Source of the DNA: Pectobacterium versatile | GTDB taxonomy: Bacteria; Pseudomonadota; Gammaproteobacteria; Enterobacterales; Enterobacteriaceae | NCBI RefSeq assembly: GCF_020166435.1 | Contig: NZ_JAINZP010000005.1 | Span: 62,001-126,000 of the forward strand | Direction of reading: 5' to 3' | Length of the DNA: 64,000 nucleotides | Shown: positions 55,123-64,000 of the stretch, in pieces | How the letters are laid out: every line of letters starts with the position of its first letter | Numbering within the stretch: the first letter of the stretch is position 1 | Notes under the pieces: model-generated | What the model was told of the DNA's origin: nothing | The model's database searches: none | The model's input: the letters and a program-made list of their open reading frames with translations, nothing else | Program-made: the position numbers and the translations under genes

Positions 55123-56052
55123 TTACTGTTCGTCGACTTTTACTATCTCTTCCTTCACCTTCCACTGGCCGCCCACCAGCTCGCGGGTGGTGGCGACCAT
55201 CGCCTGTTTCTCTTCGGAGTAGGCTTCCGTGGTTTCGACAATCAGGACAGGCTTATTATTCGCTATCTGATAGGTAGACCATTGGTGCCAGCAGCAGCCG
55301 CTTTTGGTAAACGTCGTGATGGTCTTACTTTTCTCATCAATCTCGAACAGGCCGAGGTTGGAACTGGCTAACTCGGTCAGCGGCGCATTCTGGGTAAACT
55401 GCTGCTTTTCCACATCAAACAGGTAGACGTCGTAAGACGGCCCGCCGTAAGCGCCGTTGTTGCCATTACGCAGCATGATATCCGCGTGGTGATCGAAGTT
55501 AGCGTCATCAATCACCAGCCCGCTGTTGTTCTCACCGTAAACCTCGACCAGATTCGCGGTGACTTCACCCTTATTGTTCAGCTCGATGAACATATTTTCC
55601 ATGTTGATACGCTGGAACAGGTCACCGCGCCCTTTCTTAAAGATATCCAGCGTGCCGGGGCCTTCGCAGGTTGAGTAAGAAGAGTCGAGATTGCACGTCG
55701 CCACGCTGAGAACGAAGTCCCACTGGCCTGATGCCTGAGTAATCAGGGAAATATTTTCACTGCCGGAAAGCGCCTGAATACGGGAAACCATCTCATTCCC
55801 CAGACAAACATCATCCTTACAGCGGTCACGCTCGACCAGCCACGCGCGCTGCTCCTGACGCGCTTGCACTTTGTCTTCCTTTTTCACATAACCCTGATAG
55901 GCCTTGTTTAATACCGTATCGAGCTGCTGCAAACGGCTACTGGCACAAATCATTTTCTCGGTGTCTGTACTGGCCTTGCTGCAATCCATCGCCCAGATGG
56001 ACGAGGTGAAGAAAAACAGCAGGGATGAAACGGCCAGAGATAAATAACGCAT
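55123..56052 (-). CDS. Secreted protein with LprI-type (DUF1311) N-terminal domain
   Basis: This 309-residue protein has a signal peptide (MRYLSLAVSSLLFFFTSSIWA, cleaved after IWA). It is followed by the DUF1311/LprI domain (MDCSKASTDTEKMICASSRLQQLDTVLNKAYQ, AWLVERDRC, CLGNEMVSRI) at about 22-95 with four cysteines. The rest (~110-309) resembles the periplasmic XAC2610-like part with a GxNGAYGGPSYDVYLFD segment. LprI in Mycobacterium inhibits lysozyme, but a general lysozyme-inhibitor role for the family is not established. It is probably periplasmic. Confidence 0.8.
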   Translation of the reverse strand: MRYLSLAVSSLLFFFTSSIWAMDCSKASTDTEKMICASSRLQQLDTVLNKAYQGYVKKEDKVQARQEQRAWLVERDRCKDDVCLGNEMVSRIQALSGSENISLITQASGQWDFVLSVATCNLDSSYSTCEGPGTLDIFKKGRGDLFQRINMENMFIELNNKGEVTANLVEVYGENNSGLVIDDANFDHHADIMLRNGNNGAYGGPSYDVYLFDVEKQQFTQNAPLTELASSNLGLFEIDEKSKTITTFTKSGCCWHQWSTYQIANNKPVLIVETTEAYSEEKQAMVATTRELVGGQWKVKEEIVKVDEQ

Positions 56053-56112: not shown

Positions 56113-57213
56113 CTATTTCTTGCTGCCATTTCCCATCTTTTTAAGAAAGCGCTGCTGCTCAACTAAAATCGCTTTCAACGTAATGCATTGATAATCAATG
56201 CCGTAACGCGGGGCAACCTCCGCAATAATTTTCGACAGCGCGGGATAATGCCGATGATTCCAGTTGGGGAAGATATGGTGGGTCAGGTGCATATTGAGCT
56301 GCCCCAACCAGTAGCCAAGCCAGACGGGCCGAGTCGTCCAGTCCACCGTGGTGGAAAAAACGTGCTGATAGCGACCATGCCTGAATAAGCCATCTTCCGG
56401 TGCCTGATAGAACGTTCCCTTTGCCCAATGCGACCCCAGAATCAGTACGACAAAAATCAGCGATGACAGCATTTGGCTCAGCAGATAAACCAGCAACAGC
56501 GCACCGGCGCTGACGGGTTTCGGCGACAACAGCCAATAGGGGATCGCCAATGCCAGCAGAGCATGCAGCGCTTTTGATAACAGAAAAATACCCCAGCCCT
56601 TACCGCCTTGAAGCGTCATATTACGCGTCACCTGCGTTTTCCCCGCACGATCGAGCCAGTCAAAAAACCAGATGATGCAGGGGAATGTCAGCGACGCCAC
56701 CATCGGCCAGTAGTAGCGCTGGGCGCGCATAAAAAAGCGAAACCGGTGGTAGGGCGATTGCCGCAAGACGCCGTTCTCTTCGATATCCAGATCGTAGTGC
56801 TGCACGTTGACGTGCGCATGATGAAAAATCACATGCCGCACTCGCCAGCAGTCGGAATCCATGCCGAGCGGAATACTCACCACAATATTAAGCAGGCGAT
56901 TCGCCCACGGCCGCCGGAAAAAGACGTTATGCGAGGCATCATGCACCACGTTCACCGCCAAAAACATAGCGGTAAAAATAAAGCCAAAGTAGCAACCAGC
57001 AAAACCCCACAGCGTCGTCTGCCAGAGGCTGAAACCATAAAACGTCAGACACAGCGCCACCAGAAACAGCATCTTGCCGATAAACCCAGCGTTGGCAAAA
57101 CGGTGGTCGCCCGCTGCTGCCAGATAGTCATTCGCGGCTTTCATCAGCGCCCGATGCAATGCCAGATCGCGACCTTGTTCATAACGTAGCGGCTTCAGCG
57201 GTGCGAGCATCAT
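56113..57213 (-). CDS. Membrane fatty acid desaturase, second of a tandem pair
   Basis: This 366-residue integral membrane di-iron desaturase has the three histidine boxes: VHDASHNVFF (~90), RHVIFHHAHVN (~128) and HLTHHIFPN (~310). The four or so membrane helices lie between the boxes. It is the last gene of the lipid operon. Its start overlaps the stop of the previous desaturase gene in an ATGA. It shares layout and about half its motifs with that gene, so the two arose by duplication. They probably introduce double bonds into an acyl chain handled by the operon. Substrate is unknown. Confidence 0.85.
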   Translation of the reverse strand: MMLAPLKPLRYEQGRDLALHRALMKAANDYLAAAGDHRFANAGFIGKMLFLVALCLTFYGFSLWQTTLWGFAGCYFGFIFTAMFLAVNVVHDASHNVFFRRPWANRLLNIVVSIPLGMDSDCWRVRHVIFHHAHVNVQHYDLDIEENGVLRQSPYHRFRFFMRAQRYYWPMVASLTFPCIIWFFDWLDRAGKTQVTRNMTLQGGKGWGIFLLSKALHALLALAIPYWLLSPKPVSAGALLLVYLLSQMLSSLIFVVLILGSHWAKGTFYQAPEDGLFRHGRYQHVFSTTVDWTTRPVWLGYWLGQLNMHLTHHIFPNWNHRHYPALSKIIAEVAPRYGIDYQCITLKAILVEQQRFLKKMGNGSKK

Positions 57214-58343
57214 TCTTCCTCTGAGCCATGTTGCACGGTACGCCGATCGTTCCCCTCACCCATCGATTTTAAAAACCGTCGCTGGCTAGCCAGTAGCTCA
57301 CGATAGGTAATGCAGCGATAGTTCATGCCATGCTCGGCGGCCACGCGCCGTAAGATACCAGCTAGCGCGGGGTAATGGCGATGATGCCAGCCAGGGAAAA
57401 GATGGTGTGTCAGGTGCAGGTTTAACCCTCCCGTCCAGTGCTCAAGCCAGCGCGGCGTCGGCTGCCAGTCACAGGCGGTCGCAAAGTTGTGCTGATACCA
57501 GCCTTGAGGCATCGCCTCTGTATCGGCAACGGCATAAAACTCAGCTTCAGCCCAGTGCGTACCCAGCAGTAAAAACACCACCAGCAACGAGGCCAACATT
57601 TGACCCAGCAAATAGCTTAACAGCACGATGCCCGGGCTAATGCCGTGTGCCGCCCCCACCATGATGGGAACAACCAATAACAGCAGGACATGGCCGATTT
57701 TACTGCCGATAAAAATCATCCATCCACGGTAGCCTAACTGTACTGAACGAGCATTAACGGGGGTTTTACCCAAGCGATCGGCCCAATCAAAAATCCAGGC
57801 GATATAAGGGAGCGAGAACGCGGCCACCAGCGGCCAGTAAAGATGCTGATAACGCATGTAGGAACGGTGGCGCTGAAAAGGCGTTTGGCGGAAAACCCCA
57901 TTCTCTTCCGTATCCAGATCGTAATGTTCCACATTCGGATAAAGGTGGTGAAAGTCCACATGGCGCAAACGCCAGTAATCGGGATCGATGCCTAATGGCA
58001 ACGTAACGATGCGCCCGACCACGCGGTTCAGTGTCTGATTGCGGAAAAAGGTATTATGGGAGGCGTCATGATTAACGATGATATTCAATAACATCGACAG
58101 CATGATGAAAGAAAAATAGCTCAGGAAGAACGTCCACGCCGCCTGCTGCACTAAACAAAGGGCATAACAGGCGATGCAGCATAAAAAGAGTAATCCGGCC
58201 TTAATAAACTGCCCGCTATCGGCAAAACGATGATCGTGATTAGCGCGGAGATAGGCCGACGTTTCCCGCTGTAATGCACGATGGAAAGCCTGTTCGCCCT
58301 TCGCAGGATACAGTTTGGCGGGAAGCACACTAGACATTTCCAT
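57210..58343 (-). CDS. Membrane fatty acid desaturase, first of a tandem pair
   Basis: This 377-residue di-iron desaturase has boxes NHDASHNTFF (~93), RHVDFHHLYPN (~129) and HLTHHLFPGWHHRHYP (~313). Membrane helices flank the boxes. The start at 58343 overlaps the end of the sterol-desaturase-like gene by 14 bases; the second Met at 58337 is also possible. The tail is basic and acidic (NDRRTVQHGSEEE). It is paralogous to the following desaturase. Bacterial acyl-lipid and acyl-CoA desaturases share these boxes, so the acyl carrier is not known. Confidence 0.85.
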   Translation of the reverse strand: MEMSSVLPAKLYPAKGEQAFHRALQRETSAYLRANHDHRFADSGQFIKAGLLFLCCIACYALCLVQQAAWTFFLSYFSFIMLSMLLNIIVNHDASHNTFFRNQTLNRVVGRIVTLPLGIDPDYWRLRHVDFHHLYPNVEHYDLDTEENGVFRQTPFQRHRSYMRYQHLYWPLVAAFSLPYIAWIFDWADRLGKTPVNARSVQLGYRGWMIFIGSKIGHVLLLLVVPIMVGAAHGISPGIVLLSYLLGQMLASLLVVFLLLGTHWAEAEFYAVADTEAMPQGWYQHNFATACDWQPTPRWLEHWTGGLNLHLTHHLFPGWHHRHYPALAGILRRVAAEHGMNYRCITYRELLASQRRFLKSMGEGNDRRTVQHGSEEE

Positions 58344-59454
58344 GCTCCTCGGTCAGGGGGCGTCGGCCCCAGCCGACCGCCATCGCCAGCCCGTGCAGCG
58401 CCAGCATCAGCATCGCCATCTTCCAGTAGAGCGCTTCCCAGCCCAGATAGACAAGAAATACGGCAGGGAATAGCAGCACCACCAGCAGCCAAACATAAAT
58501 ACCCCAACGTCGCCCTTCGGAAATGCCGCCAAGCGCAACCGCCCCCGCCACCAGCAATAGGAAGAGCGCCGCCTGCGACAGATCGGCGGAATCATAGCCG
58601 TAGCCATACAGGTAGACGTAGCCCACCACCAGCGCAAACAGCAGCATCGCACCGGCAATCAACGCCATCGGCGTACACTGAAACGTCGCCTGACGCGTAC
58701 GGCGCACCGACAGTTTCAGGTACGACAGAAAAGGCAGGTTACTGGCCCAAAACGGGTTTTTCGAGGGTATTTCCCGCCCCGCCCCGTAGCGGAAAGGCGT
58801 GTCAGGCAGCTGTGGGCAAAAGCTGCCAAACAGTTTGTCCCAAAAAATAAAGGTACCGCCGAAGTTCTTATCGGCGTACGCACGGTCGTTCACGTGGTGT
58901 ACGCGATGGTGTGCCGGTGTCACCAGCACCTTCTCCAGCCAGCCCAGTTTGGGCGTAATGGCATTATGGTTAAACAGTTGAACGCTGTAATGCAGGATGG
59001 AAACGGTGACGAACACATACAGCGGAACGCCGAGCAGCGCCAGAATCAGGAAGAACGGAATCGAGGTCAGCGAGGAATACCAGGAGTTACGCACGCCTAG
59101 CGACAGATTGAAATGCTCGCCCTGATGATGAACCACATGCACCGCCCACAGCACGCCGAAGGTGTGGTGCAGGCGATGTAGCCAATAGAAACCGAAATCC
59201 CAGGCAAGTATCGCGAACAGCCACATCAGCACCGGCGGCCAGGTTTCCACCCAGCCAAAACTGAAATGCGCCGCGACATAGCCATAGCAAAAAATTTCCA
59301 CGCTGCGAAAAAGCCACAGCATGATATGCCCTGAATTCAGGTTGAAAACCACGTCATGCCAGTTCACCGTTTCACGCTGCATCCACTGTAAAACCAGCGC
59401 TTCGCCAATCACCACAACCAGCATGAAGACAATGGGTAGTGCCAAATCGATCAT
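58330..59454 (-). CDS. Sterol desaturase/fatty acid hydroxylase superfamily protein
   Basis: This 374-residue membrane protein has the histidine motifs of the fatty acid hydroxylase superfamily: HRLHHTFGVLWAVHVVHHQGEHFN at about 93-116 and PAHHRVHHVNDRAYADKNFGG at about 180-200. The C-terminal third adds four hydrophobic helices, more than usual for the family. Such enzymes oxidise an alkyl chain or ring with a di-iron centre. It lies 4 bases downstream of the PAP2 gene. It may hydroxylate the lipid made by the operon. Confidence 0.85.
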   Translation of the reverse strand: MIDLALPIVFMLVVVIGEALVLQWMQRETVNWHDVVFNLNSGHIMLWLFRSVEIFCYGYVAAHFSFGWVETWPPVLMWLFAILAWDFGFYWLHRLHHTFGVLWAVHVVHHQGEHFNLSLGVRNSWYSSLTSIPFFLILALLGVPLYVFVTVSILHYSVQLFNHNAITPKLGWLEKVLVTPAHHRVHHVNDRAYADKNFGGTFIFWDKLFGSFCPQLPDTPFRYGAGREIPSKNPFWASNLPFLSYLKLSVRRTRQATFQCTPMALIAGAMLLFALVVGYVYLYGYGYDSADLSQAALFLLLVAGAVALGGISEGRRWGIYVWLLVVLLFPAVFLVYLGWEALYWKMAMLMLALHGLAMAVGWGRRPLTEEHGNV

Positions 59455-59458
59455 GATG

Positions 59459-60115
59459 TCATTCCTGATGGCGCTTATCGTTGGGTAACGGAACCGGTGG
59501 GCGTAAGGCTATCACTGTCTCTCGGTTGCACAGAAAGATCCATCCGGCGATTACCGCAAGTATCGCGCCAGTCACCAGATCGATGAACAGGTGGCGGCGC
59601 AGTTGCAGGATGGAAAAGGCAATCGCGATGCCCCAGAGAAGATAAAAGCCGGTTTTCACCTTCTGCTGGCCATCGCTCATCGCCCACACCGCCAGCACCG
59701 TTAGCGCAATATGCAGCGACGGCAGGCAATTCTGTGGCGAGTCGATAAGCAGCAAAAGCTGTAGCACACGCGTGGAAAAATCGTCCCCGACGACCAACGG
59801 ATACACCATCGTGGTCGGAAAAATCAGGTACACCGCGCCAGCAATCAAGGCGGTGAGCTGCGTTGCCCGCCGCAACCCTGCCAGACGCGACATTGGGCAG
59901 GATAAATAGGACAGCGGCACAATGATAAAAAAGGAGAGATACAGCCAGATAGCCGAAGCGCTAAAGGGAATCCACTCATCAACCAGCGACGTCGGCAGCA
60001 CCGTTCCCTGCCCCTGAAACTGCGCGCTCAGTTGATACACCACACCGACCGTTCCCCAGCCGAAGAGCAGCGCTTTCAGCCGCAATAGCAGCGTGTGTTG
60101 AGGAAATCGCATCAT
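59459..60115 (-). CDS. PAP2 superfamily phosphatase, membrane-bound
   Basis: This 218-residue membrane protein starts MMRFPQHTLLLRLKALLFGWG-like at 60115, overlapping the stop of the adenylating-enzyme gene (ATGA). It has six hydrophobic helices. In LLIDSPQNCLPSLHIALTVLAVW it carries the PSLH segment that resembles the PAP2 PSxH active-site block. RRHLFIDLVTGAILAV later holds HxxxD, the usual third motif. It could dephosphorylate or exchange the headgroup of a lipid product. An upstream extension of the frame to 60193 is not a true start. Confidence 0.8.
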   Translation of the reverse strand: MMRFPQHTLLLRLKALLFGWGTVGVVYQLSAQFQGQGTVLPTSLVDEWIPFSASAIWLYLSFFIIVPLSYLSCPMSRLAGLRRATQLTALIAGAVYLIFPTTMVYPLVVGDDFSTRVLQLLLLIDSPQNCLPSLHIALTVLAVWAMSDGQQKVKTGFYLLWGIAIAFSILQLRRHLFIDLVTGAILAVIAGWIFLCNRETVIALRPPVPLPNDKRHQE

Positions 60116-61398
60116 GCTTCCCCCTTCAGGCGAGTAATCCGTCTGCGCTTTTGCGTAAATTCCGGCGCGATCTCCCCAGCGGTGAGATGCCACCGCAGCC
60201 GCGATGCATCAATGCCCTGCAACGCAAACTGCTGCACCAGACTGTCCCGACAGGCTTCCAGTTCCGGCAGGCTACACGCGGCGGATAAATGCAGCGTCGC
60301 GTCGCCCTGCTGCACCAGCCGATAGTCGGCATGCAGCGGCAGCGCGTTAGCGATAATCCGGCTACAGAGATCCGCAAACACGGTCTGAGGCTCACCGCTG
60401 CGGCTCGGCAGTCGCAGACTGTCATCACTGCGCCCTTCAATACGAGCTATCGCCATCGTCACGCGGCCACACGAACAGGGTTCCCGCTGTTTGACCAGCA
60501 CATCATCCAGCCGATAGCGCACAATCGGCTGCGTGCTGCGGGTGAAATCGGTAATGATGGGCGTAAAACGTTCGTCATCCAGCCACTGCGGCTCAATGTG
60601 AATAAATTCTTCGTTAAGATGCAGCGTGCCATGTTCACAGGTCGATGCCAGAAAGCCTTCCGTTGCCTGATACACTTCCCCTACTTGCTCAAAGACCTGC
60701 TGCAACAGCGTCTTATCCTGCGGCTCCAACACCTCGGCCACGGAAATCACCTTTTTGGCCGACAGCCGCAGCTCACCACGCTGTACCGCCAGCGCCAGCT
60801 CGCGCAGCACCTGTGCGGGGGCAACGATAATCGACGGTGACCACGCTTCCAGTCGCGCAAAATGGCCGGAAAATGGCGCAAAGAGATCGTAAAACGACAG
60901 GCTGAGCCAGCGGTTATCAACGCTGTGATACAGGTTGTTATCCGCCCGCAGAAACAGCGCCACCCGTTCACCGGCACGTAAACCGTCAGGCAGCATTTTC
61001 GCCAGCATGCCTCCGGCCCAAATCTGCTGTTCGCGCGGGCTGACGACAAACAAACCACGCTGCCCAGACGTACCGGACGACAGCCCGACGCTAAACCCGT
61101 TCACATTCGGCGTGAAGTCGCGATCCGCTTCGCTGCGTCGCGCGCAGGCGAGCAGGTCATTTTTCTTAAGCCCAGCGGTGTTCATCCGATCGAATTCGGC
61201 CATCATTACGGCTTTATCCATCGTCGGCCAGGATGTAATAGGGAGCTGGCAGTAAGGACGAAAATAGGGACTACGCGCCAGCACCCGTCGCGCGAAGCGG
61301 GCGAGCTGATTCTGCTGATGGCGTTCAAGCGCCTGACGGGTGGTAAAACTCAGGCGTCTGGCGCGGAAATAGTGCCAGATCGTCATCAGCGGAATCAT
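60112..61398 (-). CDS. PaaK/CapK-like adenylate-forming enzyme (F390-synthetase-related)
   Basis: This 428-residue protein is an ANL-type enzyme of the PaaK/CapK group. It shows the P-loop-like GLSSGTSGQRGLFVVSP at about 103-120, VISVAEVLEP at about 213, YQATEGFLASTCEHGTLHLNEE and the late RYRLDDVLV block. I chose ATG 61398 because it overlaps the upstream stop (ATGA) and the earlier ATG is in a weak context. The family activates an acid as an acyl-AMP and forms a thioester or amide. With a ketoacyl synthase and epimerase nearby it may activate a beta-hydroxy acid, as OleC does. A cysteine pair CSCGR binds zinc in some members. Confidence 0.82.
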   Translation of the reverse strand: MIPLMTIWHYFRARRLSFTTRQALERHQQNQLARFARRVLARSPYFRPYCQLPITSWPTMDKAVMMAEFDRMNTAGLKKNDLLACARRSEADRDFTPNVNGFSVGLSSGTSGQRGLFVVSPREQQIWAGGMLAKMLPDGLRAGERVALFLRADNNLYHSVDNRWLSLSFYDLFAPFSGHFARLEAWSPSIIVAPAQVLRELALAVQRGELRLSAKKVISVAEVLEPQDKTLLQQVFEQVGEVYQATEGFLASTCEHGTLHLNEEFIHIEPQWLDDERFTPIITDFTRSTQPIVRYRLDDVLVKQREPCSCGRVTMAIARIEGRSDDSLRLPSRSGEPQTVFADLCSRIIANALPLHADYRLVQQGDATLHLSAACSLPELEACRDSLVQQFALQGIDASRLRWHLTAGEIAPEFTQKRRRITRLKGEA

Positions 61399-62201
61399 AG
61401 GTCGCCCTCGTGGCACAGACGAATCTCGACCTGTCCGTTCAGGTGCAACTGGTGCAGCTGATCCAGCGTGTGGTAATAGGCTTTTGGATCGTCCATCACC
61501 AGATTCGCCAACCGCGACGGTCCGCGACCTTCACGGTAGCTGTGCGGCGACCAGGCGGCATCACTTGCCAACAGCACCCAGCCGTTTTCGGTCAGCACAA
61601 ACGCGCCGAGGTGTCCAACTGCATGGCCGGGCAACGGCACCAGCACGATCTCTTTATCGCTACCGGGCAACGCATAGCCTTGCGTAAACGGTGCCAGCTT
61701 GGCTGGCAGGTCGGTAAGCGGAAAGTTTTCAACAAACTGGAGCGCTTGCTCGAAATGTTCAGGAATCAGCGCAGGGACAAATGCCCGTTTCAAGGCCGCG
61801 AAACCGCGCAGGTTCCGCGTCTGCTGCCAGCCCAGCGCCGAACAGATAAACGGCACGGAGGGGAAATCCCGCAGCCCCGCGATATGGTCGCCGTGGAAAT
61901 GGGAGATGATCAGGCCATCGATGTCCGTAGGTTGAATACCCTGCGCGTGTAGCTGGTGAATCAGCGCGTCTTTCGTTTCGAAATGCACCGGCGTCATTCT
62001 GCGGTACAGTTGGAACAGGCCGGAACGCGTGGCATCGGTAAAATGCTGAGCATAGCCGGTATCCCACAGCCAGCGCTTACCCTGACTTTCCAGCATCCAG
62101 ACCCGCGCCGGAAAACGGCACACCTTCCATCCCGCACCACGCAGCGCCATACAACCCGGATGCAGGCAGTATCCTACTTCAAACGTCGAAATATTAGCCA
62201 T
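61395..62201 (-). CDS. Metallo-beta-lactamase-fold hydrolase
   Basis: This 268-residue protein has the MBL motif SHFHGDHIAG at about 104-113, further histidine LVPLPGHAVGHLG and the aspartate in VLLASDAAWSPHS. It resembles the lactonase/hydrolase branch that opens homoserine lactones or thioesters. I chose ATG 62201 (MANISTFEVGY), which overlaps the end of the epimerase gene by 8 bases. In the operon it might hydrolyse an acyl intermediate or lactone. Confidence 0.82.
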   Translation of the reverse strand: MANISTFEVGYCLHPGCMALRGAGWKVCRFPARVWMLESQGKRWLWDTGYAQHFTDATRSGLFQLYRRMTPVHFETKDALIHQLHAQGIQPTDIDGLIISHFHGDHIAGLRDFPSVPFICSALGWQQTRNLRGFAALKRAFVPALIPEHFEQALQFVENFPLTDLPAKLAPFTQGYALPGSDKEIVLVPLPGHAVGHLGAFVLTENGWVLLASDAAWSPHSYREGRGPSRLANLVMDDPKAYYHTLDQLHQLHLNGQVEIRLCHEGDL

Positions 62202-63222
62202 GTCCGTCAGTACTCCGCTGCGCAAGATGTGTTTTGAACCAGCTACCGGTTAACCCGATACCCTGCTGGAGGGAAAAACGCGGCTGATAGCCCAGCTCTT
62301 GCTGCGCTTTCTCCGCGCTGAGCGTCATATCAAAATTCACCGCTCCCGCGCTGTAGCGCGTCAGCAGCGGCTCTTTTCGGCTAAACCACGAGAACAGTTC
62401 CATACCACCGGCCACCGCGTGCAGTAACGGATACGGCACCGCCCTAACGCGATAACTCATGCCCAACTGACCGACCAGCAGTTGCTGGAGCATGTCTGCA
62501 AGGCGTGCGGGCTCATGATTGGTAATGTTGTACGCCGAACCTGAAACTAACCCCGTGCGCTGGCTGGCAAGCGCCATCCCCTCTACCACGTTGCCGACAA
62601 ACGTCAGATCCAGCAGCGCTTCACCACCGCGCGGGAGACGCAGCACGCCACCGCCCACCGCGATTTGCTCCAGAACACGCGGCAGAATCACGCGGTCATG
62701 TGGGCCAAACAGGCCACGCGGGCGCAGGATGACATAGGTGGTTTGCGGGTAGCGTGACGTCATGGCCTGAAGCCGTTCTTCCGCCAGAAATTTGGTCTGT
62801 GCATAGTGATTGGCAAAACGCACCGCGCGATAGCTTTCATCAATATTCAGGTGGTGCTGATAATCAAAGTAAATCGCGGGCGTGGAGATGTGCACAAAAC
62901 GCGGGATACCCAACTGACCCGCGGCTTCAGCCAGTCGCGCCGTTACCTCGGTATTATTCTGATAAAAATCATCATATTGACCCCACGGTGATGATTTTGC
63001 AGCACAGTGCCAGACCACATCACAGCCCGCCATCAGCGTTCGACACTGCTCTACCGACGTTTCCACCAAATCAATGCGGGCAAACTGCGCACCCTGCGCA
63101 TCAAGCTGTTGCCCTACCGTGCGATCGCGCCCACAGGCCAGCACCTGATGCCCAGCCTGGAGCAGCCATTCCACCGCGTTACGCCCCAACCCGCTGGTTG
63201 CGCCCGTGACGAAGACTCTCAT
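62194..63222 (-). CDS. NAD-dependent epimerase/dehydratase of the OleD-like type
   Basis: This 342-residue short-chain dehydrogenase of the extended type has the GATSGLGRNAVEWLL nucleotide loop at about 7-21, HISTPAIYFD, and the catalytic YAQTKFLAEERL (Tyr ~144, Lys ~148). The C-terminal part is about 180 residues, as in 3-beta-hydroxysteroid dehydrogenase-like enzymes. OleD, a relative, reduces the beta-keto acid made by OleA. The gene starts at ATG 63222, overlapping the ketoacyl synthase stop (ATGA). A role as a ketoreductase in this operon is inferred from the neighbours. Confidence 0.82.
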   Translation of the reverse strand: MRVFVTGATSGLGRNAVEWLLQAGHQVLACGRDRTVGQQLDAQGAQFARIDLVETSVEQCRTLMAGCDVVWHCAAKSSPWGQYDDFYQNNTEVTARLAEAAGQLGIPRFVHISTPAIYFDYQHHLNIDESYRAVRFANHYAQTKFLAEERLQAMTSRYPQTTYVILRPRGLFGPHDRVILPRVLEQIAVGGGVLRLPRGGEALLDLTFVGNVVEGMALASQRTGLVSGSAYNITNHEPARLADMLQQLLVGQLGMSYRVRAVPYPLLHAVAGGMELFSWFSRKEPLLTRYSAGAVNFDMTLSAEKAQQELGYQPRFSLQQGIGLTGSWFKTHLAQRSTDGHG

Positions 63223-64000
63223 GGGATCAGTACCATTCCGCCCAGCGTCAACCCGGCGGCCGTACCGACCAGCATCGCGGGTTCACCTTCAGGCAGGCGT
63301 TGCGTCACGATGGCATGATGCAGCGCCGTCGGAATCGAGGCCGCGACCTGATTGCCGTGATAGCGGTAAATATCAATCAGCCTTTCCGTCGGAATCGCCA
63401 GCCGCTTGCGCATATGTTCCAGCGACAGGTGGCTGGCCTGATGCGGAACCACCGCCGCCATCTGATCCAGCGAGTAGCCGCTGGCATCCAGCAGACGTTG
63501 CAGATAGCCTTCAATCAAGGCAGAAGCCTGCCTGAACAGCCGTTTTCCCTGCATGTGGAACAGAAAATCATGCAGTTCCATCCCCGCACGCGGGTTGCGC
63601 AAGGTACCGCCTGCGCGGATTTGGCACAGTTCGTTACCCTTCGGATAAGTTTCCAGCAAACACGCCGCAATACCGCTGCGCCCATCGCCGCGTTCAACAA
63701 CGGCGCACGCGGCACCATCGCCAAAAATCAGCGACGACTCTTCGTCATCCCAGTCAATGCCGCGTGAGGCCAGTTCGGTAGAGACAATGGCAATGCGCCG
63801 ATAAGCACCAGTATTCAGCAAACCAGCTGCCACCTGAAGCGCGGAAATAAAGCTGACGCAGCTGCTGTTAATATCAAAACAGGCCGTCCCTTTTGGCAGA
63901 GACGACGCTTTTAATAAGTGGCTGGCGCTATAAGGCAGCGCCTGAATCGGAATAGCAGAGGCAAACAGCAGCAGATCGATTGACGCGGGCGGAATAATTC
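63219..64000 (-). CDS. FabH/OleA-like 3-oxoacyl synthase, N-terminus beyond window end
   Basis: The frame runs from the window edge to a stop at 63219, so about 260 C-terminal residues are visible. The catalytic cysteine is in FDINSSCVSFISALQVAAGLL. The histidine is in VPHQASHLSLEHMRK and the asparagine in RYHGNQVAASIPTAL, giving the Cys-His-Asn triad of KAS III. LIFGDGAACAVVERGD and the terminal VGTAAGLTLGGMVLIP are family features. FabH starts fatty acid synthesis from acetyl-CoA, while OleA joins two long acyl-CoAs; the context favours an OleA-like or other special role. It overlaps the epimerase start by 4 bases. Confidence 0.85.
   Translation of the reverse strand, partial: IIPPASIDLLLFASAIPIQALPYSASHLLKASSLPKGTACFDINSSCVSFISALQVAAGLLNTGAYRRIAIVSTELASRGIDWDDEESSLIFGDGAACAVVERGDGRSGIAACLLETYPKGNELCQIRAGGTLRNPRAGMELHDFLFHMQGKRLFRQASALIEGYLQRLLDASGYSLDQMAAVVPHQASHLSLEHMRKRLAIPTERLIDIYRYHGNQVAASIPTALHHAIVTQRLPEGEPAMLVGTAAGLTLGGMVLIP

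Follow-up and report, generated by a model that had tools for sequence, protein, structure and literature searches.

What is made by an operon of eight closely packed minus-strand genes occupying positions 56113..64000 of a 64,000-nt stretch of Pectobacterium versatile DNA (hereafter the window, whose numbering is used throughout)? The genes encode, along transcription, a KASIII-type ketoacyl synthase (KAS), an extended short-chain dehydrogenase/reductase (SDR), a hydrolase of the metallo-beta-lactamase (MBL) fold, a PaaK-fold adenylating enzyme (AMP), a PAP2-superfamily membrane protein (PAP2), a membrane enzyme of the fatty acid hydroxylase superfamily (FAH) and two fatty acid desaturases (DES1 and DES2), the series running from the equivalent of position 64235 down to 56113. 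As already stated in an initial annotation of the window, no characterised product is named for this gene set in the literature searched, outside of which most subscription journals lie, and absence from print is not claimed. The operon, the intact active-site motifs of its proteins, a conserved core formed by its first four genes and accessory modules being swapped around this core are direct observations. We propose, with a probability of roughly one half, that the operon represents a lipid-assembly pathway, the core of which gives rise to a long-chain backbone that is hydroxylated, perhaps two-tailed, and subject to lineage-specific tailoring.

Conservation of the Four-Gene Core

The main comparison comprises 49 loci from 48 genomes, the halves of a divided cluster in Budvicia being counted as two rows of one genome, while two deviant megaplasmid loci (pMPPla107 and pBASL58) were set aside. 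All four core genes (KAS, SDR, MBL, and AMP) are present in 48 of 48 genomes, a value that does not represent an unbiased rate and has co-occurrence partly built in, as the loci were gathered using core genes as queries. An uninterrupted KAS-SDR-MBL-AMP order is found in 44 of the 49 loci, the five exceptions comprising two Bacillota in which an ATP-grasp gene interrupts the core, a permuted order in Fusobacterium and the split Budvicia cluster (two rows). With this contiguous core and the full order KAS-SDR-MBL-AMP-PAP2-FAH-DES1-DES2 in 20 of the 49 loci, the arrangement is not due to chance. In Budvicia (matching Budvicia diplopodorum), KAS-PAP2-DES2 is located at one site and SDR-MBL-AMP at another, all four core genes being kept. 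Within the family sample, a synthase at E ≤ 1e-60 is encoded in 18 of 149 genomes (own included) and is followed by SDR, MBL, and AMP in 17 of these 18. An adjacent core is likewise present in 22 of the 23 named loci found via the ligase, the remaining one being the same Budvicia, and in all of four later loci (three from a phylum-wide ligase survey and one from a class-wide survey). Pairwise distances of the four core proteins correlate with r values between 0.965 and 0.974 (44 loci), as expected if the four genes are inherited together. That this core is combined elsewhere among bacteria with several further tailoring modules is beyond the reach of single-sequence reading.

The Condensing Enzyme

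With 188.4 bits, KAS remains under the cut-off of the FabH model TIGR00747 (292.1), and its 321 bits to PRK07204 are under the respective value of 402, which is exceeded by the synthases encoded in the Pontibacillus and Paenibacillus cassettes. A separate true FabH (478.9 bits) is encoded in the same genome. Among solved structures, the chain nearest to KAS is 4v2p (154 bits), which we take to be MxnB, followed by FabH 2ebd and CorB 4yuc (both 141 bits), whereas chains 3fk5, 3row, 5vxd, 6b2s and their kin, presumably representing OleA, score about 29–34 bits. In an alignment of 16 cassette synthases to the genome's own true FabH, all retain the Cys/His/Asn triad. FabH residue F87 is replaced by Leu or Ile in all 16, and W32, R151, and R249, which together with R36 and K214 constitute coenzyme A (CoA)- and acyl carrier protein (ACP)-binding residues of FabH, are retained in only 2, 1, and 0 of the 16 sequences, respectively. 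Since the triad is kept but these positions are mostly replaced, KAS appears to be an active synthase that probably does not employ the partners of FabH as FabH itself does. Hence, a mere duplicate of FabH can be rejected on account of the sub-cut-off score, the separate FabH and the replaced binding residues. Comparison with the OleA and FabH families, as advised in the initial annotation, did not place the synthase with OleA, and the assignment as "OleA-like" had to be given up considering the bit scores to OleA chains and MxnB; instead, the enzyme is a KASIII nearer to MxnB/CorB and FabH, yet below the FabH cut-off.

MxnB and CorB are enzymes of alpha-pyrone antibiotic synthesis (myxopyronin and corallopyronin), where ketosynthases of this type join two beta-ketoacyl chains that are bound to carriers. 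They share with KAS a similar active-site stretch (SCVSF/SCLSF), the HQ(A/P)S motif and the loop ahead of the HM motif. The operon differs from their pathways in encoding neither a polyketide synthase nor a carrier protein, and KAS is followed by SDR, MBL, and membrane lipid enzymes.

Reductase, Hydrolase and Adenylating Enzyme

In the SDR, Y140 and K144 are conserved to at least 95% (51 sequences, duplicates included). The nearest solved structure is a sterol-4-carboxylate 3-dehydrogenase, and the scores of 159 and 163 bits to OleD-type models are far below the cut-off of 580, in line with membership in the same wider SDR group. The proposed resemblance to OleD is therefore real but does not extend to OleD identity. 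The histidines and the aspartate of the HxHxDH motif in MBL are also conserved to at least 95%, and the nearest named families are 4-pyridoxolactonase and N-acyl homoserine lactone lactonases.

AMP belongs to the NCBIfam family TIGR02304 (582.2 bits, cut-off 251.9) and gives no match in Pfam, PF00501 included, so that the comparison with OleC drawn in the initial annotation does not extend to a true OleC. A predicted structure with a mean pLDDT of 75.8 matches the PaaK-family ligases AjiA1, NatL2, and PaaK1 in Foldseek (E 5e-19, probability 1.00; top matches with a template modeling score of about 0.6, a root-mean-square deviation of 6–10 Å and 17–18% identity). Judged by this model, AMP has the PaaK fold. 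A TIGR02304 member with known reaction was not found in the literature searched.

In the core, the same set of activities as in the OleABCD system can be deduced, namely a condensing enzyme, an SDR reductase, an AMP-forming ligase and a hydrolase. KAS, however, is closer to MxnB/CorB/FabH than to OleA, the ligase has the PaaK fold and is not of the PF00501 type, and the hydrolase is an MBL enzyme. In agreement with the initial annotation, an alpha/beta-hydrolase of the OleB type was not detected by Pfam in any of the eight proteins. The Ole comparison consequently holds as an analogy of function and not as membership, as by their sequences none of the four core enzymes would be assigned to an Ole family. 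A variant Ole pathway that employs PaaK-type and MBL enzymes instead of OleC and OleB and ends in a beta-lactone or hydrocarbon would account for the functional tally and for the SDR scores to OleD-type models. The distance to the OleA chains, the lack of both the PF00501 ligase and the alpha/beta-hydrolase, and glycosyl-, sulfo- and amino-acid-type partner modules, which suggest a polar product and make a plain hydrocarbon unlikely, render this variant decidedly improbable.

Alternatively, the ligase might activate an acid that is condensed with a fatty chain by KASIII, with MBL acting as thioesterase, resulting in a small lipophilic signal or antibiotic resembling the Pseudomonas quinolone signal or a pyrone and not in a membrane lipid. 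Consistent with this, MxnB/CorB are the nearest solved KAS relatives, the best fold matches of AMP include PaaK-type ligases of natural-product biosynthesis, and 10 of the 11 Pectobacterium loci have LuxI/LuxR-type genes in the neighborhood of the operon. Within the compared set, however, the LuxI/LuxR matches are confined to Pectobacterium, and the names of the 22 solved MBL relatives (E ≤ 0.001), which comprise AiiA, pyridoxolactonase and similar enzymes, do not include PqsE. As GT21 glycosyltransferases, DUF3419 proteins and membrane desaturases also fit lipids better, a signal or antibiotic is considered unlikely.

Tailoring Enzymes and Exchangeable Modules

The module PAP2-FAH-DES adjoins the core in gamma- and betaproteobacteria, including the window. 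PAP2 shows the PSLH and RHLxxD motifs, while the classical first motif of this superfamily is not visible. The His boxes of FAH are invariant in 19 aligned sequences. For FAH, a solved relative was not found at E ≤ 1, and its fold model (pLDDT 49.9) was too poor for comparison with alkylglycerol monooxygenase (AGMO). DES1 and DES2 are 48% identical to each other, and relatives of DES1 were not found among solved structures. FAH reaches 66 bits to the model of the OlsE hydroxylase (cut-off 475) and the desaturases weakly match the DesB model at 28–32 bits (cut-off 500). These similarities and the kept KASIII triad would be in accordance with fatty-acid tailoring only, i.e., KAS and SDR making an unusual hydroxy fatty acid that after desaturation and hydroxylation enters ordinary phospholipids, without any new lipid class. 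Such a role leaves the adenylating enzyme, the MBL enzyme and the head-group-type modules unexplained and is regarded as improbable.

Other modules are found elsewhere. SDR2-GT21-h189-GT1 is present, whole or partial, in five enteric loci, either alone or following PAP2-FAH-DES, and both GT21 and an h189-like protein (24% identity, E 7e-14) are also encoded at the Fusobacterium locus. Alongside GT21, cassettes of enteric bacteria and of Fusobacterium share a protein of 180–215 aa (L049:15155-15724, L048:1356-1898, and L078:6217-6864; 24% identity, E 7e-14); its L049 copy gave no Pfam or NCBIfam match. GT21 resembles HpnI at 96 bits, under the cut-off of 310. A GT21/HpnI-like glycosyltransferase is thus shared by cassette relatives and ceramide- or hopanoid-type glycolipid pathways, whereas the P. 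versatile operon itself does not include the GT21 module. Besides, ATP-grasp and/or GNAT genes accompany the core in Pontibacillus, Paenibacillus, Paraburkholderia and two further genomes, a divergent sulfotransferase in Paracoccus and Ketogulonicigenium, and DUF3419, presumably of the BtaA type, together with its partner h368 in Rhizobium and Shinella. The h368 protein has no Pfam match and matches a GNAT-annotated protein of Paenibacillus at 37%. Partners of the GT21, sulfotransferase, BtaA and N-acyltransferase types would suit a lipid bearing a hydroxyl, amino or carboxyl group.

Proposed Lipid Pathway

In the lipid-assembly pathway favored here, the KASIII synthase would join two activated acyl units, a step suggested by its kinship to MxnB/CorB and the loss of several CoA- and ACP-binding residues of FabH. 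The resulting keto group might then be reduced to a hydroxyl by the OleD-like SDR, the lactonase-like MBL would hydrolyze a thioester or lactone intermediate, and the PaaK-fold ligase could adenylate the freed acid, enabling its joining to a partner. The outcome would be a hydroxylated long-chain, possibly two-tailed backbone (a 2-alkyl-3-hydroxy acid). In Pectobacterium, Serratia, Pseudomonas, E. coli and others, this backbone may be tailored at the membrane by the PAP2, hydroxylase, and desaturase proteins, while other bacteria would add a sugar, amino-acid-type, betaine-type or sulfate group through their own modules. Every reaction, the step order and the product are what we infer, the sequence of condensation, reduction, release and adenylation being modeled on the activities of OleA, OleD, OleB, and OleC, respectively.

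Counted in favor of a lipid pathway were the order and co-occurrence of the core genes, their matched divergence, the conserved catalytic residues, the kinships of KAS and SDR, the adenylating fold, accessory modules able to act on hydroxylated lipids or head groups, and the Budvicia split that keeps the core. In addition, a ladderane study suggests for an acyl-CoA-ligase-like "F390 synthetase" of D. psychrophila, encoded in a different gene cluster, a role in attaching the lipid to glycerol (PMC2649909). The family matches also bear out the lipid-type enzymes recognized in the initial annotation, and the oxidized, polyunsaturated long-chain compound suggested there is a possible product.

Several points weigh against the proposed pathway, the product, substrate and activity of which are all putative. 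MxnB and CorB are merely the nearest among distant relatives, making a two-chain condensation by KAS a guess, and not all CoA/ACP-binding positions have been lost, as 9 of the 16 cassette synthases still have Arg at position 36 and 15 have either Lys or Arg at position 214. An ACP is not encoded in the operon, and PaaK-type ligases of solved structure mostly take small or aryl acids and not long chains. Two loci (L058 and L080) have the core without any of the accessory genes searched for. The query-based sampling of loci likewise has to be considered, as do the two megaplasmids, of which pMPPla107 shows only AMP and a weak ATP-grasp match, while the core genes of pBASL58 are dispersed across some 10 kb.

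In a broader and more tentative interpretation, which we consider possible though doubtful, KAS-SDR-MBL-AMP might be a portable cassette directing the synthesis of a lipid backbone of the two-tailed hydroxy-acid type that has not been described before, and individual lineages would furnish this backbone with heads of their own (sugar, sulfate, amino acid, betaine-like) or with desaturated and hydroxylated tails. Such a modular lipid class would then be common to soft-rot bacteria, relatives of Pseudomonas syringae, Fusobacterium and E. coli strains isolated from infected humans, CFT073 and a strain of ST131 being examples. If the lipid pathway is real, 23 of the 25 Pectobacterium genomes and roughly every eighth complete E. 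coli genome would carry a pathway of this kind without known product. The operon would provide a concrete and easily deleted locus for discovering a new bacterial lipid, and the variant clusters would represent a natural series for reading the job of each enzyme.

Distribution and Possibly Related Mutant Phenotypes

With regard to conservation in the genus, a check advised in the initial annotation, the ligase gene was found in 23 of 25 Pectobacterium genomes. The closest named record is P. carotovorum DSM 30168, with 97% in the ligase protein. Dickeya is not among the 23 named ligase loci, a search specific to this genus not having been made. The core also occurs in Serratia, relatives of Pseudomonas syringae, Burkholderia, Paracoccus, Paenibacillus, and Fusobacterium. 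The Fusobacterium record (NZ_CP084075.1, L078) is labeled plasmid; given the record length of 2.1 Mb, a chromosomal location of the cassette is probable. Phylum-wide, 7 of 398 genomes (own included) were positive, with one of 14 named control genomes passing (Deinobacterium chartae), and class-wide 2 of 369 at E ≤ 1e-60 (own included). Hence, the distribution of the cassette is patchy.

In E. coli, a seven-gene operon was matched in 672 of 5426 complete genomes, in 671 of them over at least 80% of the operon length. It is located between narI and tRNA-Tyr genes in CFT073 (L075:18542-32594), clone D i2 and an O25b:H4-ST131 strain (see also L068 and L077). The operon is missing from this site in K-12 MG1655 and likewise in UTI89, where the site harbors an IS4-family transposase gene (L087:5705-6904). 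The synthase gene is preceded by co-oriented narGHJI genes, at a distance of about 0.1–0.6 kb, in 7 of the 48 genomes, namely those of E. coli, three Serratia and three others. This recurrent neighbor suggests a link to nitrate respiration, though the tailoring enzymes look oxygen-dependent.

A study of the E. coli operon itself was not found in the literature searched, nor was anything found by the names "F390 synthetase-related" and TIGR02304. Phenotypes possibly related to the cassette are nevertheless reported. In a transposon screen of CFT073 for systemic infection, c1689, a "putative 3-oxoacyl (acyl carrier protein) synthase III," is a candidate fitness gene of the primary screen (PMC3855560). 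That c1689 represents the operon synthase can be deduced from the gene name and from its place in the numbering of that list, between narX (c1682) and rssA/ychK (c1698), as compared with the gene order of the locus. In a screen of the kiwifruit pathogen Pseudomonas syringae pv. actinidiae, an insertion reducing virulence was located in the "Coenzyme F390 synthetase" gene IYO_RS29540, a possible counterpart of the cassette ligase (PMC9823363). In two further papers, a coenzyme F390 synthetase gene is merely mentioned (PMC5467263 and PMC5501837).

Gene Organization and Genomic Context

All eight reading frames are open on the minus strand and belong to the families initially named (Table 1), as established by open reading frame calls with Pfam and NCBIfam and, for AMP, by the fold. 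Where checked, the catalytic motifs are present. KAS is truncated at the window end, and its genome copy extends 235 bases further. Counted from ATG starts, neighboring genes overlap by 4 (KAS/SDR), 8 (SDR/MBL), 4 (MBL/AMP), 4 (AMP/PAP2), 14 (FAH/DES1), and 4 bases (DES1/DES2), with PAP2 and FAH being separated by a gap of 4, precisely as expected from the initial proposal of a single operon with overlaps of 4–14 or gaps of 4 bases.

Table 1. Genes of the P. versatile operon in the order of transcription.
Gene product	Position in window	Strand	Size and characteristics
KASIII-type ketoacyl synthase (KAS)	63219..64000, cut by window end	-	full gene 338 aa; Pfam ACP_syn_III and ACP_syn_III_C
OleD-like extended SDR (epimerase/3beta-HSD type)	62194..63222	-	342 aa; YxxxK at 140-144
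MBL-fold hydrolase	61395..62201	-	268 aa from conserved ATG; HFHGDH metal motif
PaaK-fold adenylating enzyme (AMP)	60112..61398	-	428 aa; TIGR02304 "F390 synthetase-related"; SSGTSG motif
PAP2-superfamily membrane protein (PAP2_3 type)	59459..60115	-	218 aa; PSLH and RHLxxD motifs
Fatty-acid-hydroxylase/sterol-desaturase superfamily membrane enzyme (FAH)	58330..59454	-	374 aa; PF04116 98 bits
Fatty acid desaturase DES1	57210..58343	-	377 aa; three His boxes; PF00487 119 bits
Fatty acid desaturase DES2	56113..57213	-	366 aa; three His boxes; PF00487 91 bits

The G+C content of the operon (56.3%) exceeds those of the entire window (47.6%) and of the flank outside it (49.2%), a difference that could reflect horizontal acquisition; for the CFT073 operon, the contrast is small (52.1 versus 50.5%). 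A promoter scan was uninformative, with 4 promoter-like sites versus 6.6 expected. Upstream and divergent from the operon lies the pectinesterase gene pemB, the product of which reaches 754.8 bits with the PemB model (cut-off 700), with LuxR/LuxI-type genes, which we take to be expR/expI, next beyond it. The same quorum-sensing genes and pemB constitute the neighborhood in the 10 of 11 Pectobacterium loci referred to above (L002:11504-14462), three of which show divergent LuxI/LuxR copies (72–74% and 62–63% identity). In no other locus of the compared set were LuxI/LuxR matches found, and their association with the operon was dropped as a general rule.

Immediately downstream, positions 55123-56052 encode an LprI/XAC2610-type protein on the same strand. 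With a gap of 60 bases, and being present in 8 of 11 Pectobacterium loci and 0 other compared loci, this gene was left out as a ninth operon member. The Shinella cassette is also adjoined by a weak LprI match (E 2e-6) on the other strand.

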